Below are positions 3,817 to 13,837 of a stretch of 64,000 bases of DNA, piece after piece. The notes below the pieces were generated by a model. That model worked only from the letters and a program-made list of their open reading frames with translations, searched no databases and was not told where the DNA came from. A program made the position numbers and the translations under genes. The stretch is from Christiangramia forsetii KT0803 (GTDB lineage Bacteria; Bacteroidota; Bacteroidia; Flavobacteriales; Flavobacteriaceae). Every line of letters starts with the position of its first letter. The first letter of the stretch is position 1. The DNA is taken from positions 806,001-870,000 of the forward strand of contig NC_008571.1 of NCBI RefSeq assembly GCF_000060345.1, in the 5' to 3' direction.

Positions 3817-3934
3817 GATTTCTAAATTAAAAACCGGATAGCTAGACAGTTTTTGCTGAAACTTAACCCTCAATAAACCATCTTAGAGATAGTATAGTCT
3901 GAACTATCCGGTTGAATTAATAAATGCTTTTGTA

Positions 3935-4357
3935 TTATTTAATAAATTTTTCTATACCATCCTTCAGGTAAATAAAAGCTGATTGTTTGATATCCCTAAC
4001 TTCAATTATATGTTTTTCAATTTTTGAACGTAACAGGAGGTGAGCCGTTATAAATGCATGATCACACTCAATTTGATCACATTCATTTTGCCCCATTAAT
4101 TGATGCTGAAAACCTTCACAACTTTTCAGGTGCAGATCATTCGTTTCTTGCAAGTCGAAAAATTGATTTGAAAGATAATTAGCATCAATATAGTTTGCAT
4201 TTGTTTTAAGAATTAGAGAAGAATTTAATAGGTCTAAATAAAATTTAATCTCCTGCGATATAAATGCTAATTCTCCTTTCCAGTAAACAACCTCACTTTG
4301 AAACCTAACTAGTTGAATTTCCTCTTCGTTATGATGTTCTTGAATGTTTGTGATCAT
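3935..4357 (-). CDS. Hypothetical helical protein
   Basis: 140 residues, predicted mostly helical and soluble, rich in Glu, His and Asn, with a Cys cluster (C..HQLMGQNECDQIEC) in the middle. No family recognised. Its start overlaps the end of the GreA/Rnk-like gene by 29 nt, so it is probably translated from the same message as the fourth gene of the row that begins with the 53-residue Cys protein and gdh. The overlap and the intact frame argue for a real gene. Confidence 0.6.
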   Translation of the reverse strand: MITNIQEHHNEEEIQLVRFQSEVVYWKGELAFISQEIKFYLDLLNSSLILKTNANYIDANYLSNQFFDLQETNDLHLKSCEGFQHQLMGQNECDQIECDHAFITAHLLLRSKIEKHIIEVRDIKQSAFIYLKDGIEKFIK

Positions 4358-9379: not shown

Positions 9380-10057
9380 TTATTTAAGCATCTCAAATAA
9401 TTTTTGAGCTACCATCCCTGAAGAGGCAGGATTTTGACCTGTTATCAAATTCCCGTCTACAATAGCATATTCCTCCCAATCACCAGCTTTGGAATAAATT
9501 CCGCCATTTTCTTTTAACATATCTTCTACTAGAAATGGAACAACCTCGGTTAGCTGAACAGCTTCTTCTTCAGTATTTGTAAAACCTGTAACCTTTTTAT
9601 CTTTTACCAAAGGCTCGCCATTTTCTGCTTTTACATTCTTTAAAGCAGCTGGAGCGTGGCATACAAAACCAATTGGTTTCTTAGCTTTATTAAAAGTTTC
9701 GATGAGCTTGATAGAATCTTCATCTTTCGAAAGATCCCATAGAGGACCGTGACCACCAGGATAGAACACCGCGTCAAAATCTTTCGGATTCATTTTTGAT
9801 AATACTTCCGTGTTATTTATCACCTTTTGTGCTGCATCATCCTTTTTAAAACGTACAGTATCTTCAGTTTGTGTATCTTCCGTATCACTGCTAGGATCTA
9901 TTGGAGCTTTTCCGCCTTTTGGAGTGGCTACAGTAATATCAACATTCTTATCTAACAATTTATAATATGGATTCGCAAATTCTTCTATCCAGAAACCCGT
10001 CTTGTTTCCCGTATTTCCAAGTTCGTCGTGAGACGTAAGTACAAATAAAATCTTCAT
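9380..10057 (-). CDS. DJ-1/PfpI family protein, Hsp31/glyoxalase III-like
   Basis: 225 residues, cytoplasmic (no signal peptide). The pattern matches the Hsp31-like type 1 glutamine amidotransferase group: Glu26 in GFWIEE, YPGGHGP at 100-105, and the nucleophile Cys133-His134 in FVCHAPAAL. Relatives convert methylglyoxal to lactate without glutathione or act as deglycases/chaperones, so protection against reactive carbonyls is likely. It is monocistronic with its own terminator downstream. The 501-bp region upstream contains a TPP riboswitch on the opposite strand. It is the second DJ-1 family protein of the window; the other one is an exported lipoprotein. Confidence 0.85.
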   Translation of the reverse strand: MKILFVLTSHDELGNTGNKTGFWIEEFANPYYKLLDKNVDITVATPKGGKAPIDPSSDTEDTQTEDTVRFKKDDAAQKVINNTEVLSKMNPKDFDAVFYPGGHGPLWDLSKDEDSIKLIETFNKAKKPIGFVCHAPAALKNVKAENGEPLVKDKKVTGFTNTEEEAVQLTEVVPFLVEDMLKENGGIYSKAGDWEEYAIVDGNLITGQNPASSGMVAQKLFEMLK

Positions 10058-10388: not shown

Positions 10389-10421
10389 ATTGAAAATCAA
10401 CAAATTAATTTAGTATCTTTA
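10389..10421 (+). promoter_or_regulatory. Promoter of the orphan TPP riboswitch RNA
   Basis: ATTG at 10389-10392 and TATCTTTA at 10414-10421, separated by 21 bp, fit the Bacteroidota -33/-7 pattern with one mismatch each. Transcription would begin close to 10427, exactly at the 5' side of riboswitch helix P1. Confidence 0.55.
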
Positions 10422-10425
10422 AAAA

Positions 10426-10508
10426 GTCGTTCAGGGTGCTATCTTTAATTAGAGCTGAGATTATACCTGTTGATTATTCAGATAATGCTGAATGAAGATT
10501 ATGACGAT
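10426..10508 (+). ncRNA. TPP (THI-box) riboswitch aptamer, apparently without a downstream gene
   Basis: The conserved TPP aptamer elements appear in order: P1 gtcgt/acgat (10426-10430 with 10504-10508); cagggtgct leading into P2 and P3; gct/agc closing P3; the pyrimidine-sensing ctgagattatacc at 10454-10466; and a perfect P5 ttcag/ctgaa around gataatgc. P4 is weak (gttgat and aagatt instead of cctgat and aaggga), so affinity may be reduced. TPP riboswitches normally precede thiamine synthesis or uptake genes, but the DNA after this one on the plus strand is the antisense of the universal stress protein gene. The next plus-strand gene is 1.4 kb away. Confidence 0.65.
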
Positions 10509-10509
10509 G

Positions 10510-10561
10510 CAAAGGGAGCAGTTAATGTGAAATATTCATTTATGTTCCCTTTGTTTTTTTA
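10510..10561 (+). terminator. Rho-independent terminator following the TPP aptamer
   Basis: caaagggagca at 10510-10520 pairs with tgttccctttg at 10543-10553 (one G.U pair; an inner aatg/catt pair shortens the loop) and is followed by eight T residues. It begins 2 nt after the aptamer, so it is well placed as the expression platform. It overlaps the stop region of the oppositely oriented usp gene (10559). Confidence 0.8.
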
Positions 10562-11407
10562 TTTTACTTCTTTTAAGATCAACACAGGTAATTTTGGATC
10601 AAATGCGATTTCGCTAACTACAGATTTTGAAAAAAGTCTGGAAAAGAACCCCTGCTTTCTTTGATATAATGCCAGGAAATTACTTTCCCGACTTTCTATA
10701 AATAAATGTACCCCAGTTGCAGCCGTAGTTTGTGTTAACATATGGAAGCTATGGTAAACCCCTGTTAAATGATGTTCTAACTCCTCCTTATTTTCTTCCT
10801 GTTCTGGACTAAGCTTTTTATTTTCAGTATTAATGTATAGTACCCGAACGGTCGCTCCCATACTTCTTGCGAAATCTATTAGCGCGAGTAATTCTTTTTG
10901 TTTAAAGGGAATGCGGAGATTGGTCGGAAAAACGATCTCTGTATTTGTAAGGGCTTTCCACTCATAGACTTCAGGAATCACCAGGATTGGACATTGTTCC
11001 ACATCTTCGGTAATTTTTGAAATATCTTCCGAAGAATTTATATGAACTGAATCACCGCGGGATCCCAGAATAATAAGATCTACACCAAATTTATCTGCAT
11101 TCTCCTGAATACCTTCCACCAGATTTCCCTGGAAAGAAATAGTTTCGAAATTATGATTCGGATTTTCTTTTCTGAAACTAAGTCCCTGCATGATCCTTTC
11201 CAGACCTTTTTCTGAAGCCTCTTTTCCTGTAGGCTCCTCATCATTATTTTTATTTAACGGAATAGCCTCGCTTAAAAACCTCTGTGAATGGTAAACATTG
11301 ATCAAATAGAATGTACAGGAATATTTTTTAAAAAGGTTCATTGAAAAAATGAGCGCATTCCAGGAATGTTTGGAGAAATTGGTAGGGATCAGGATCTTTT
11401 TTTCCAT
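10559..11407 (-). CDS. Universal stress protein, double UspA domain
   Basis: 282 residues, two UspA-like units. The first (about 1-147) is typical: MEKKILIPTNFSKHSWNAL, then DLIILGSRGDS with part of the ATP-binding glycine motif, and CPILVIPE. The second unit (from about residue 155, NTEIVFPTNL) is degenerate and lacks the glycine motif, so only one nucleotide site is expected. Tandem Usp proteins of this size are common in Bacteroidota and are induced by starvation and other stress; the exact role is unknown. Its 3' end faces the orphan TPP riboswitch transcript. Confidence 0.85.
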   Translation of the reverse strand: MEKKILIPTNFSKHSWNALIFSMNLFKKYSCTFYLINVYHSQRFLSEAIPLNKNNDEEPTGKEASEKGLERIMQGLSFRKENPNHNFETISFQGNLVEGIQENADKFGVDLIILGSRGDSVHINSSEDISKITEDVEQCPILVIPEVYEWKALTNTEIVFPTNLRIPFKQKELLALIDFARSMGATVRVLYINTENKKLSPEQEENKEELEHHLTGVYHSFHMLTQTTAATGVHLFIESRESNFLALYQRKQGFFSRLFSKSVVSEIAFDPKLPVLILKEVK

Positions 11408-11944: not shown

Positions 11945-13837
11945 ATGGAAAATAAAAGGCATTTTGTAATTGATTTCGACAGTACTTTTACTCAGGTAGA
12001 AGCGCTGGATGTACTCGGAGAGATATCTCTGGCGAATAACCCTAAAAAAAAGGAAAAGCTGCAGGAACTAAAGGACCTCACAGATCTTGCAATGGGAGGA
12101 AAACTCGCATTTAGAGAATCCCTGGAAAAGAGATTGGAGATTCTGGAAGCAAATAAAAATGCTCTTCCAGAGCTTGTTGAAAAGCTGAAAAATATGGTCT
12201 CAGTTTCCTTTGTTAGGAATGAAGAGTTTTTTAAAGAACACAGGGATAACATTTATATTATTTCTAACGGCTTTAAAGAGGTTATAGTTCCTATTGTAAG
12301 TGAACTGGGAGTGAAAGAAACCAATGTGTATGCCAATACCTTTTCTTTTGATAAAGATGGGAATATTACCGGTTTTGATCAGGATAACGTGCTTTCTTCT
12401 AATAATGGGAAAGTGGAGCTTCTAAAACAAATGGGCTTGAAGGGTGATGTTTACGTTATTGGTGACGGCTATAATGATTACGAAATAAAAGCAGCGGGAT
12501 TGGCAAATAAGTTCTACGCTTTTACTGAAAATATAGAGCGGGATAATGTTCTTGATAAAGCAGACCATATCACGCCAAGTCTTGATGAATTCTTATACCT
12601 TCATAAAATGAACAAAGCTATTTCTTATCCAAAAAACCGAATAAAAGTTCTTTTATTAGAAAATGTGCATGCAGATGCCGTGGCCATTATGAAAAATGAA
12701 GGCTATAATGTGTCTACGATTTCTGGTGCCTTAGATGAAGATGAACTTGCTGAAAAGATTAAAGATGTATCAGTTTTAGGAATTCGATCTAAAACCAATC
12801 TAACGGCAAAGGTTCTTGAGAATGCAAACCGACTTATTGCCGTAGGAGCTTTTTGTATTGGTACCAATCAAATAGATCTTGAAACCTGTCTTAAAAAAGG
12901 AGTTGCGGTTTTCAATGCTCCCTTCAGTAACACAAGATCTGTGGTTGAACTGGCCATTGGTGAGATCATTTTATTAATGAGAAACCTACCAGACCGTATT
13001 GCAGAGATGCATAATGGGGAATGGAACAAATCTGCCAAAGGAAGTTATGAGATTAGAGGTAAAAAACTCGGAATTGTAGGTTATGGTAATATCGGCGCAC
13101 AACTTTCTGTGGTGGCCGAAGCGGTAGGTTTTGATGTTTATTATTACGATTTGGTTGAGAAACTCGCACTGGGAAACGCAACCAAATGTAGTAGCCTTCA
13201 GGAATTATTTGAGAAAGTTGATATTGTTACCCTTCATGTGGATGGAAGGGATGAAAACAAGAACATGATAGGTGATAAGGAATTTGGTTGGATGAAGGAA
13301 GGCTCTATATTCCTGAATCTTGCCAGGGGTCAGGTAGTAGATGTTGATGCGTTAAGAAAACACATGGAATCTGGTAAAATTACCGGAGCGGGAGTGGATG
13401 TATTCCCAAAAGAGCCAAAGACCAATCAGGATGAATTTGAGTCTACTTTAAGAGGTTTGCCAAATCTTATTCTCACTCCACACATAGGTGGAAGCACTGA
13501 AGAGGCACAGGTAAATATTGGTAATTTTGTTCCGGGTAAGATTATTAATTATATCAATACAGGTGGAACTACCAACTCGGTAAACTTCCCGAATTTGCAG
13601 TTACCTATACTGGAGAACGCACATAGACTCATTCATATTCACCACAATAAACCAGGAATCATTGCACATATTAATAAAATTCTGGCTGCACACGATATTA
13701 ATATCGTTGGGCAATATCTTAAAACCAATGAAACTGTAGGATACGTGATCACAGATATAGACAAGGCATATGATGCTGATGTGATCAAGGAACTAAAAGG
13801 AATTCAGGGGACCATTAGGTTTAGAGTTTTGTATTAG
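11945..13837 (+). CDS. serA: Fusion of phosphoserine phosphatase-like HAD domain and D-3-phosphoglycerate dehydrogenase
   Basis: 630 residues, two enzymes of serine synthesis in one chain. Residues 1-220 form a SerB-like HAD phosphatase: motif I DFDST (Asp10, Asp12), SNG near 107-109, and GDGYNDYE at 173-180. Residues 230-540 form a SerA dehydrogenase: GYGNIG at 379-384, catalytic Arg461 in LARGQ, Glu490 region and His513 in TPHIGGS. An ACT domain (about 562-630) ends the chain and probably allows feedback by serine. So 3-phosphoglycerate oxidation and phosphoserine hydrolysis are linked; the aminotransferase (SerC) is encoded elsewhere. gapN follows after 69 bp on the same strand. This fusion is known in flavobacteria. 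Confidence 0.9.
   Translation: MENKRHFVIDFDSTFTQVEALDVLGEISLANNPKKKEKLQELKDLTDLAMGGKLAFRESLEKRLEILEANKNALPELVEKLKNMVSVSFVRNEEFFKEHRDNIYIISNGFKEVIVPIVSELGVKETNVYANTFSFDKDGNITGFDQDNVLSSNNGKVELLKQMGLKGDVYVIGDGYNDYEIKAAGLANKFYAFTENIERDNVLDKADHITPSLDEFLYLHKMNKAISYPKNRIKVLLLENVHADAVAIMKNEGYNVSTISGALDEDELAEKIKDVSVLGIRSKTNLTAKVLENANRLIAVGAFCIGTNQIDLETCLKKGVAVFNAPFSNTRSVVELAIGEIILLMRNLPDRIAEMHNGEWNKSAKGSYEIRGKKLGIVGYGNIGAQLSVVAEAVGFDVYYYDLVEKLALGNATKCSSLQELFEKVDIVTLHVDGRDENKNMIGDKEFGWMKEGSIFLNLARGQVVDVDALRKHMESGKITGAGVDVFPKEPKTNQDEFESTLRGLPNLILTPHIGGSTEEAQVNIGNFVPGKIINYINTGGTTNSVNFPNLQLPILENAHRLIHIHHNKPGIIAHINKILAAHDINIVGQYLKTNETVGYVITDIDKAYDADVIKELKGIQGTIRFRVLY

Follow-up and report, generated by a model that had tools for sequence, protein, structure and literature searches.

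A Probable Family of TPP-Aptamer-Derived Stand-Alone Small RNAs, Likely Trans-Acting, in Flavobacteriaceae

Christiangramia forsetii KT0803 holds a TPP-riboswitch-like RNA of 133 nt which, with reasonable confidence, is best explained as a member of a family of stand-alone small RNAs, derived from the TPP aptamer, present in Flavobacteriaceae and likely to act in trans. The element lies in a stretch of 64,000 nucleotides (NC_008571.1, positions 806,001 to 870,000 of the forward strand; hereafter, the window), and its parts are collected in Table 1. In nearly all copies of the family, a -7 promoter box is located just upstream, the RNA starts at P1 and folds into P1, P2, P3, and P4-P5, and a predicted terminator follows soon after P1. 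The same free-standing RNA has been kept across many related bacteria, so the window RNA probably still functions as a regulator and is no fossil. A first-pass annotation of this DNA had described an orphan TPP riboswitch with its own promoter and terminator, antisense to a universal stress protein (usp) gene, and had proposed either a small or antisense RNA or the relic of a lost thiamine operon.

Table 1. Features of the RNA locus and its context, in window coordinates.
Feature	Position	Strand	Details
Promoter, presumably of flavobacterial type	10390..10420	+	TTG 10390-10392, 21-nt spacer, -7 box TATCTTT 10414-10420
Putative TPP-aptamer-derived stand-alone small RNA (model span)	10426..10558	+	RF00059, family models R1 and R2
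P1 5' strand	10426..10430	+	pairs with 10501-10505; compensatory changes in relatives
P2 5' strand	10432..10435	+	pairs with 10466-10469; compensatory changes
P3 5' strand, short	10438..10440	+	pairs with 10453-10455; alignments of relatives
CTGAGA, pyrimidine-sensor motif J3/2	10455..10460	+	conserved in relatives
Fused P4/P5 hairpin, L5 ATAATG	10474..10495	+	strands 10474-10481/10488-10495; fold and relatives
P1 3' strand	10501..10505	+	compensatory changes in relatives
Intrinsic terminator (predicted)	10510..10560	+	CAAAGGGAGCA/TGTTCCCTTTG stem 10510-10520/10543-10553; T run 10554-10560
Universal stress protein gene (PF00582), context only	10559..11407	-	convergent; stop codon touches T run

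The derivation from the TPP aptamer is supported by the Rfam model RF00059, which matches the plus strand of the window from 10422 to 10516 over all of its 105 positions, with a score of 35.9 bits (E = 9.3e-6 in a 251-nt stretch and 3.3e-5 in the whole 3.8-Mb genome). The gathering score of this model is 54.3, so a default Rfam scan misses the window RNA. The first-pass annotation had suggested a search with this model, and had regarded a sub-threshold score combined with a lack of compensatory pairing in relatives as fatal to its proposal; the full length of the model is matched, the threshold is not reached, and compensatory pairing is present in relatives. Another 20 copies drawn from 97 loci were compared with RF00059, and all of them match (34–65 bits), which upholds the ancestry that had been claimed. 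Seven of these 20 exceed the gathering score, so that the family grades from near-TPP members into strongly altered ones.

Folded alone, the window RNA is more stable than its shuffles (z -3.39; 1 of 200 shuffles as stable), and its minimum-energy structure contains P1, P2, the hairpin, and the terminator. P3 is absent from this single-sequence fold, where ATCTT is instead paired to GAGAT at the CTGAGA box. A single 8-bp helix occupies the place of P4, J4/5, and P5, without the canonical J4/5 internal loop. The P4 that had been called weak is indeed altered, not by mere weakening but by its fusion with P5 into this one hairpin. The terminator begins 3–4 nt after P1, instead of the 2 nt given previously, and the -7 box ends 5 nt ahead of P1.

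The distribution of the family was established with covariance models, exact patterns, and BLAST, with stricter filters in searches over more than 40 genomes. The model R1, built from 17 genus copies, and a further model, R2, give the window copy 137.4 and 102.5 bits, respectively, this copy being included in both. Within the genus (Christiangramia/Gramella), R1 detects the RNA 19 times with at least 82 bits, the next match scoring 35.8; these copies belong to 12 of 24 genomes, and the other 12 have none. Among 397 genomes of Flavobacteriaceae, 35 carry the RNA at 57.9 bits or more (next match, 38.8), and by our own count these copies fall in 24 genera. Strong BLAST matches in 59 genomes are confined to the genus, the best one outside being a short match with an E value of 1.5e-4. 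Searching named genomes with an exact pattern yielded 58 loci, in genera that include Christiangramia, Aequorivita, Gelidibacter, Arenibacter, Altibacter, Formosa, Marinirhabdus, Robertkochia, and Confluentibacter, which we take to be members of Flavobacteriaceae; all record titles naming a group point to this family except for one MAG, "Bacteroidia bacterium", and no record among the 58 is titled Flavobacterium. This pattern demands both CTGAGA and the terminator stem, whose conservation in these 58 loci is thus by construction. R2 was run on an order-wide and a phylum-wide sample of 395 genomes each, which overlap in genomes, and found five and three genomes, respectively, at 89 bits or more, all from the same family. 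It also matches ordinary TPP switches with up to 64 bits: wherever their sequence was printed, the matches at or below this score resemble ordinary switches, and the AAAGGGA..TCCCTTT hairpin is absent from the weaker matches with printed sequence (L201–L241).

By model, the family RNAs measure 121–140 nt, and some genomes hold two to four copies. On one contig (L152), two copies (937-1062 and 3892-4016) lie about 3 kb apart. The set of copies used below was obtained by putting in 97 loci, with L140 and seven repeat genus loci omitted, and comprises 98 matches, 84 of them distinct.

The fold of this RNA is under selection. Compensatory changes affect 14 of 36 pairs among the 17 genus copies. 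In alignment A5 (63 representatives under 93% identity, aligned with MAFFT, with the structure placed by hand), 91.9% of the cells are paired and 25 of 32 pairs show changes on both sides; all 500 shuffles score lower on each of the five measures, and sliding the partner strands leaves 40–51% paired. P4 and P5 pair less well (76.6% and 85.3% of cells), since they are not in the same register in all genera. RNAalifold predicts 21 pairs on A5, recovering P2, P3, part of P5, and the terminator, and does not predict P1 and P4; in copies folded singly, P2 in its modelled register has a median probability of 0.20.

As for the promoter, the -7 box of the window, which we take to be of the flavobacterial type, belongs to a conserved pattern: TAnnTTn occurs in the final 20 nt before the RNA in 82 of the 84 distinct copies, against 30.2 expected from mononucleotide shuffles. 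A sigma-70 scan also lists the window promoter; it returns nine sites of this kind where 9.9 are expected, which is the level of chance, and the support for this promoter therefore comes from its conservation in the copies and not from the scan.

On the other side of the aptamer, the terminator stem is predicted with a probability of at least 0.9 in 82 of 84 copies. Together with the conserved box, this bears out the earlier proposal that the element has its own promoter and terminator, and the small RNA envisaged there as the likely product is consistent with both predictions. The window terminator is not listed by the promoter/terminator scan tool, probably because its loop exceeds the limit of the tool. 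In transcripts cut before the 3' strand of the terminator, antiterminator pairing has a median probability of 0.05 and surpasses 0.5 in 4 of 63 representatives. High stem probability and low antiterminator pairing suggest that termination is constitutive and that the product is a short RNA, the terminator being predicted to work without a conserved antiterminator.

The sequence of the stem is conserved as well. Nine of ten columns of its 5' strand show 92–100% identity among the 63 representatives, with a variable loop, and this conservation goes beyond the needs of a terminator, though it stems in part from the way the loci were selected. In the 28 loci found by R1 (L111–L138), a model itself built on copies having the stem, CAAAGGGA is present in 20. 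A family member at 89 bits (L200) carries a different terminator stem that retains a GGGAA/TTCCC core. The hairpin pattern occurs once in the window genome. The possibility that this hairpin spreads alone was also considered and rejected, given that its exact pattern occurs in the 24 genus genomes solely at copies of the RNA. The fixed stem is a candidate protein site or other possible contact.

The two halves of the sensing pocket have followed different paths. Both the pyrimidine and the pyrophosphate sensors are described as separate helices of the TPP aptamer (PMC4112796). The pyrimidine half is retained, with P2, P3, and a CTGAGA box that is 97–100% identical per column in the 63 representatives (by construction in pattern-found copies) and present in 27 of the 28 model-found loci and in 73 of 76 distinct cut-outs. 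L5 TAAT is conserved to the same degree (97–100% per column). The columns of J2/4-P4 and J4/5 mostly range from 8 to 78%, with two at 92 and 98%, and those of J4/5 alone from 8 to 46% of 63 rows, gaps counting against identity. With regard to the pyrophosphate half (P4-J4/5-P5), the canonical CCTG strand of P4 is found in none of 76 family cut-outs, versus 52 of 56 ordinary TPP aptamers, and a looser motif of the 3' strand (CG-N-AGG) in 10 of 76 versus 41 of 56. The 76 cut-outs come from the set of copies described above, from which duplicates of this region and unparsed sequences dropped out; on the ordinary side, 70 loci gave the 56 aptamers. P4 and P5 form one uninterrupted helix in 23 of 63 representatives, including 13 of the 15 from the genus. 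Part of the motif loss may be a harmless pair swap, as CCTG is replaced by CTTG in some genera. With one half of the pocket kept and the other rebuilt, a thiamine response of the kind proposed in the first-pass annotation is possible: the near-TPP members of the family could bind TPP, and those of the genus probably do not bind it in the usual way.

The RNA is mostly not a leader, and the genes around it are unrelated to one another. Mechanical ORF calls of at least 80 aa gave a downstream gene for 82 copies. This gene is convergent in 57 of them, and in 44 of these 57 its end lies no more than 62 nt from the RNA; in the other 25 it is co-directional and starts at least 77 nt away. The 162 neighbouring genes form 83 families, the commonest being a peptide-chain release factor (presumably prfB), an upstream 597-aa protein without Pfam match, usp, an M28 peptidase, a TolC-like protein, and tra-like proteins. 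A release factor lies downstream of 14 copies and a TolC-like gene of 5 among the 82. The end of the RNA is located 0–2 nt from the convergent release-factor gene in three Aequorivita/Altibacter-type loci (L123, L126, and L129). Pfam found no thiamine family in 30 proteins (29 of the 83 family representatives plus the window usp), 8 of which had no match at all, in agreement with the earlier statement that no thiamine gene follows the element, whose downstream neighbour is usp (PF00582). However, the antisense control of usp does not hold as a general function, nor is the arrangement of riboswitch and usp general in relatives, where its conservation had been proposed as a check: usp is the convergent gene in 5 of 82 copies, and other genes take its place elsewhere. 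Collision or 3' overlap may influence the convergent genes, yet the shared function cannot lie there, because these genes differ between genera.

Some neighbourhoods deserve a separate mention. Four Gelidibacter-type copies (L157, L177, L178, and L194) are followed at 77–87 nt by a co-directional nicotinate phosphoribosyltransferase gene, before which a local cis role is possible. On contig C26 of genome G017 (locus L044, 6000-15000), the copy at 9873-10001 (+) adjoins a Trm112p-like gene, followed by a TMP-TENI gene at 10440-10982 (-); the cluster that the RNA faces convergently resembles one for thiamine salvage and has an ordinary TPP switch (12843-12935) at its head, and this is the sole copy found beside a thiamine gene among the neighbourhoods examined. 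Copies at L098–L100, L104, and L109, in genomes G002, G011, G015, and G017, lie 179–236 nt before genes of conjugative elements that we take to be traE/traF/traG-like, so the RNA may be mobile. Pfam assigned no family to the first tra-like gene, a plasmid search with one conjugative-type copy gave no match, and no viral contig carried the exact RNA pattern.

Considering these features as a whole, the element should be filed as a TPP-aptamer derivative and not as a TPP riboswitch. It has the pyrimidine sensor of the class, but neither the canonical pyrophosphate sensor nor, among the neighbour families run on Pfam, the linkage of a thiamine leader. Its promoter, its terminator, and the lack of any fixed gene linkage are, by prediction and conservation, those of an intergenic small RNA, and the relaxed constraint, broken pairs, and lack of recurrence of a degenerate relic were not observed.

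The window genome (G000) gave no match to ThiC or to TMP-TENI, so it probably imports thiamine, and on this gene content the organism is a probable thiamine auxotroph. In the genus, ThiC is found in 2 of 24 genomes (22 without it) and TMP-TENI in 5. Of the 12 RNA-bearing genomes, none has ThiC and three have TMP-TENI (G014, G017, and G021); hence, the presence of the RNA does not track thiamine synthesis, and a link between both was discarded, as the distribution of these genes in the 24 genomes does not follow that of the RNA. A thiamine-linked signal would still be useful to an importer. TPP aptamers of the genus generally have low scores: RF00059 matches at an E value of 0.1 or better occur in all 24 genus genomes and exceed the threshold in seven, one of which (G002) qualifies through its stand-alone copy. 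The ordinary TPP switch of the window genome, upstream of a gene that by our own reading of the sequence is TonB-dependent-receptor-like, scores 47.5 bits and is also under the gathering score. An unusual P4/J4-5, ACCTGGGC[AG]GG..GC[TC]GCCAAGGGA, is common to the ordinary switches of this group (among them L001, L057, L059, L060, L062, L063, L065–L069, L073, L074, L077, and L080); nearly all of them stay under the gathering score, and L057 just reaches 54.3.

In the proposed mechanism, the small-RNA family would have arisen from a TPP riboswitch aptamer within Flavobacteriaceae. After transcription, the RNA would be set free as a complete small molecule and would act in trans through a bound protein or a partner RNA, for which the conserved terminator stem may serve as a contact. 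A response to a thiamine compound may persist in those genera where it is less altered; in Christiangramia, with a pyrophosphate loop that is mostly a plain helix, it would probably be independent of TPP or have another ligand. A more detailed scenario, with a new class of riboswitch-derived regulator, is put forward tentatively, as one possibility: in the ancestor of some Flavobacteriaceae, the TPP aptamer would have become separated from its operon and acquired a promoter of its own, now fixed, together with a terminator of conserved sequence. As a free small RNA, it would then have come to relay a thiamine-related signal in trans, perhaps without the pyrophosphate, while also riding on conjugative elements and persisting in genomes that probably no longer make thiamine.

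Several other explanations have been weighed. A small RNA with a rebuilt aptamer that senses another ligand, such as unphosphorylated thiamine, HMP, or other pyrimidine, is unlikely. The retained pyrimidine sensor, the absence of CCTG from all the family cut-outs, and the treatment of both sensors as separate helices in PMC4112796 agree with it, but the low identity of J4/5 reveals no consistent new loop, which fits a loss of recognition better than the gain of one new ligand, and the swap to CTTG may be harmless. It is doubtful that the element works as an orphan cis switch, where TPP would gate the terminator to allow an antisense transcript to the convergent gene (usp in the window) or co-directional read-through. 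Although the architecture of aptamer plus terminator, the contact between the usp stop codon and the T run, and the co-directional genes after some copies would suit such a switch, and PMC2258182 deals with antisense arrangements as well as orphan aptamers, both convergent and co-directional genes change between the hosts of the copies; the antiterminator sought in truncated transcripts does not exceed 0.5 in 59 of the 63 representatives, with terminator probabilities near 1.

That the terminator is a boundary between convergent genes, with the aptamer as a passenger, is very unlikely. In the window, no strand but that of the RNA has the T run, the aptamer helices covary and keep CTGAGA and L5, a promoter box precedes nearly every distinct copy, and the confinement of the exact hairpin to RNA copies in the genus applies here too; these facts outweigh the tail-to-tail position of 44 of the 82 copies and the unusual conservation of the stem sequence. 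Finally, a relic of a lost thiamine operon is hardly credible. The sub-threshold score, the altered P4, and the missing ThiC and TMP-TENI matches are what a relic might leave behind, but structure and sequence have been held across many genera (24 in the family sample) with compensatory changes, the promoter box and the terminator are conserved, and extra copies occur at conjugative-element-like loci. The relic reading of the first-pass annotation was abandoned on account of the covariation in both the 17 genus copies and the 63 representatives.

The stand-alone small RNA family, therefore, remains the preferred explanation, and it has some implications. Riboswitches are usually taught as parts of messages, and a selected, stand-alone TPP family would show how a sensor becomes an independent RNA gene. 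Moreover, the family constitutes a natural series, from copies over the Rfam TPP threshold to copies without the pyrophosphate half. Copies over the threshold would receive the annotation of an ordinary TPP riboswitch, which could mislead attempts to reconstruct how marine Bacteroidota regulate thiamine. In the titles and abstract openings of the open-access literature, no description of a stand-alone TPP small RNA was found, and as far as these searches show, this is the first coherent orphan-aptamer family for TPP.

Compared with known systems, the family resembles the RF00059 aptamer in the P1-P5 plan, GGGGTG, CTGAGA, and L5 TAAT, and differs from it in the altered P4/J4-5 and the loss of CCTG. 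Unlike TPP riboswitches, it has no downstream thiamine gene as a family, and it has its own promoter box and an immediate terminator, predicted to be constitutive. SroA from E. coli and Salmonella is also a short TPP-aptamer RNA, but it is a fragment of the leader of a thiamine transporter, whereas the family described here is predicted to come from a free-standing gene. Barrick and Breaker (2007) reported a handful of good aptamers located away from cognate genes, suggested to produce trans-acting RNAs or to be orphans (PMC2258182); in contrast to that handful of matches, a single coherent family with a shared terminator is found here. The small RNAs of Flavobacterium psychrophilum, such as the Rfp RNA Rfp18, are independent flavobacterial small RNAs too (PMC9723704), and are set beside the window RNA by description and not by sequence; the term "TPP" is absent from the main text of that article. 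Parallels in the type of regulation are EutX from Enterococcus and Rli55 from Listeria, in which, as described in PMC7602753, a cobalamin aptamer controls a small RNA with a protein-binding site. As in these systems, a riboswitch aptamer would be tied to a trans-acting small RNA, trans action being proposed in our case; unlike in them, the window terminator follows so closely after P1 that no separate small RNA body is left.
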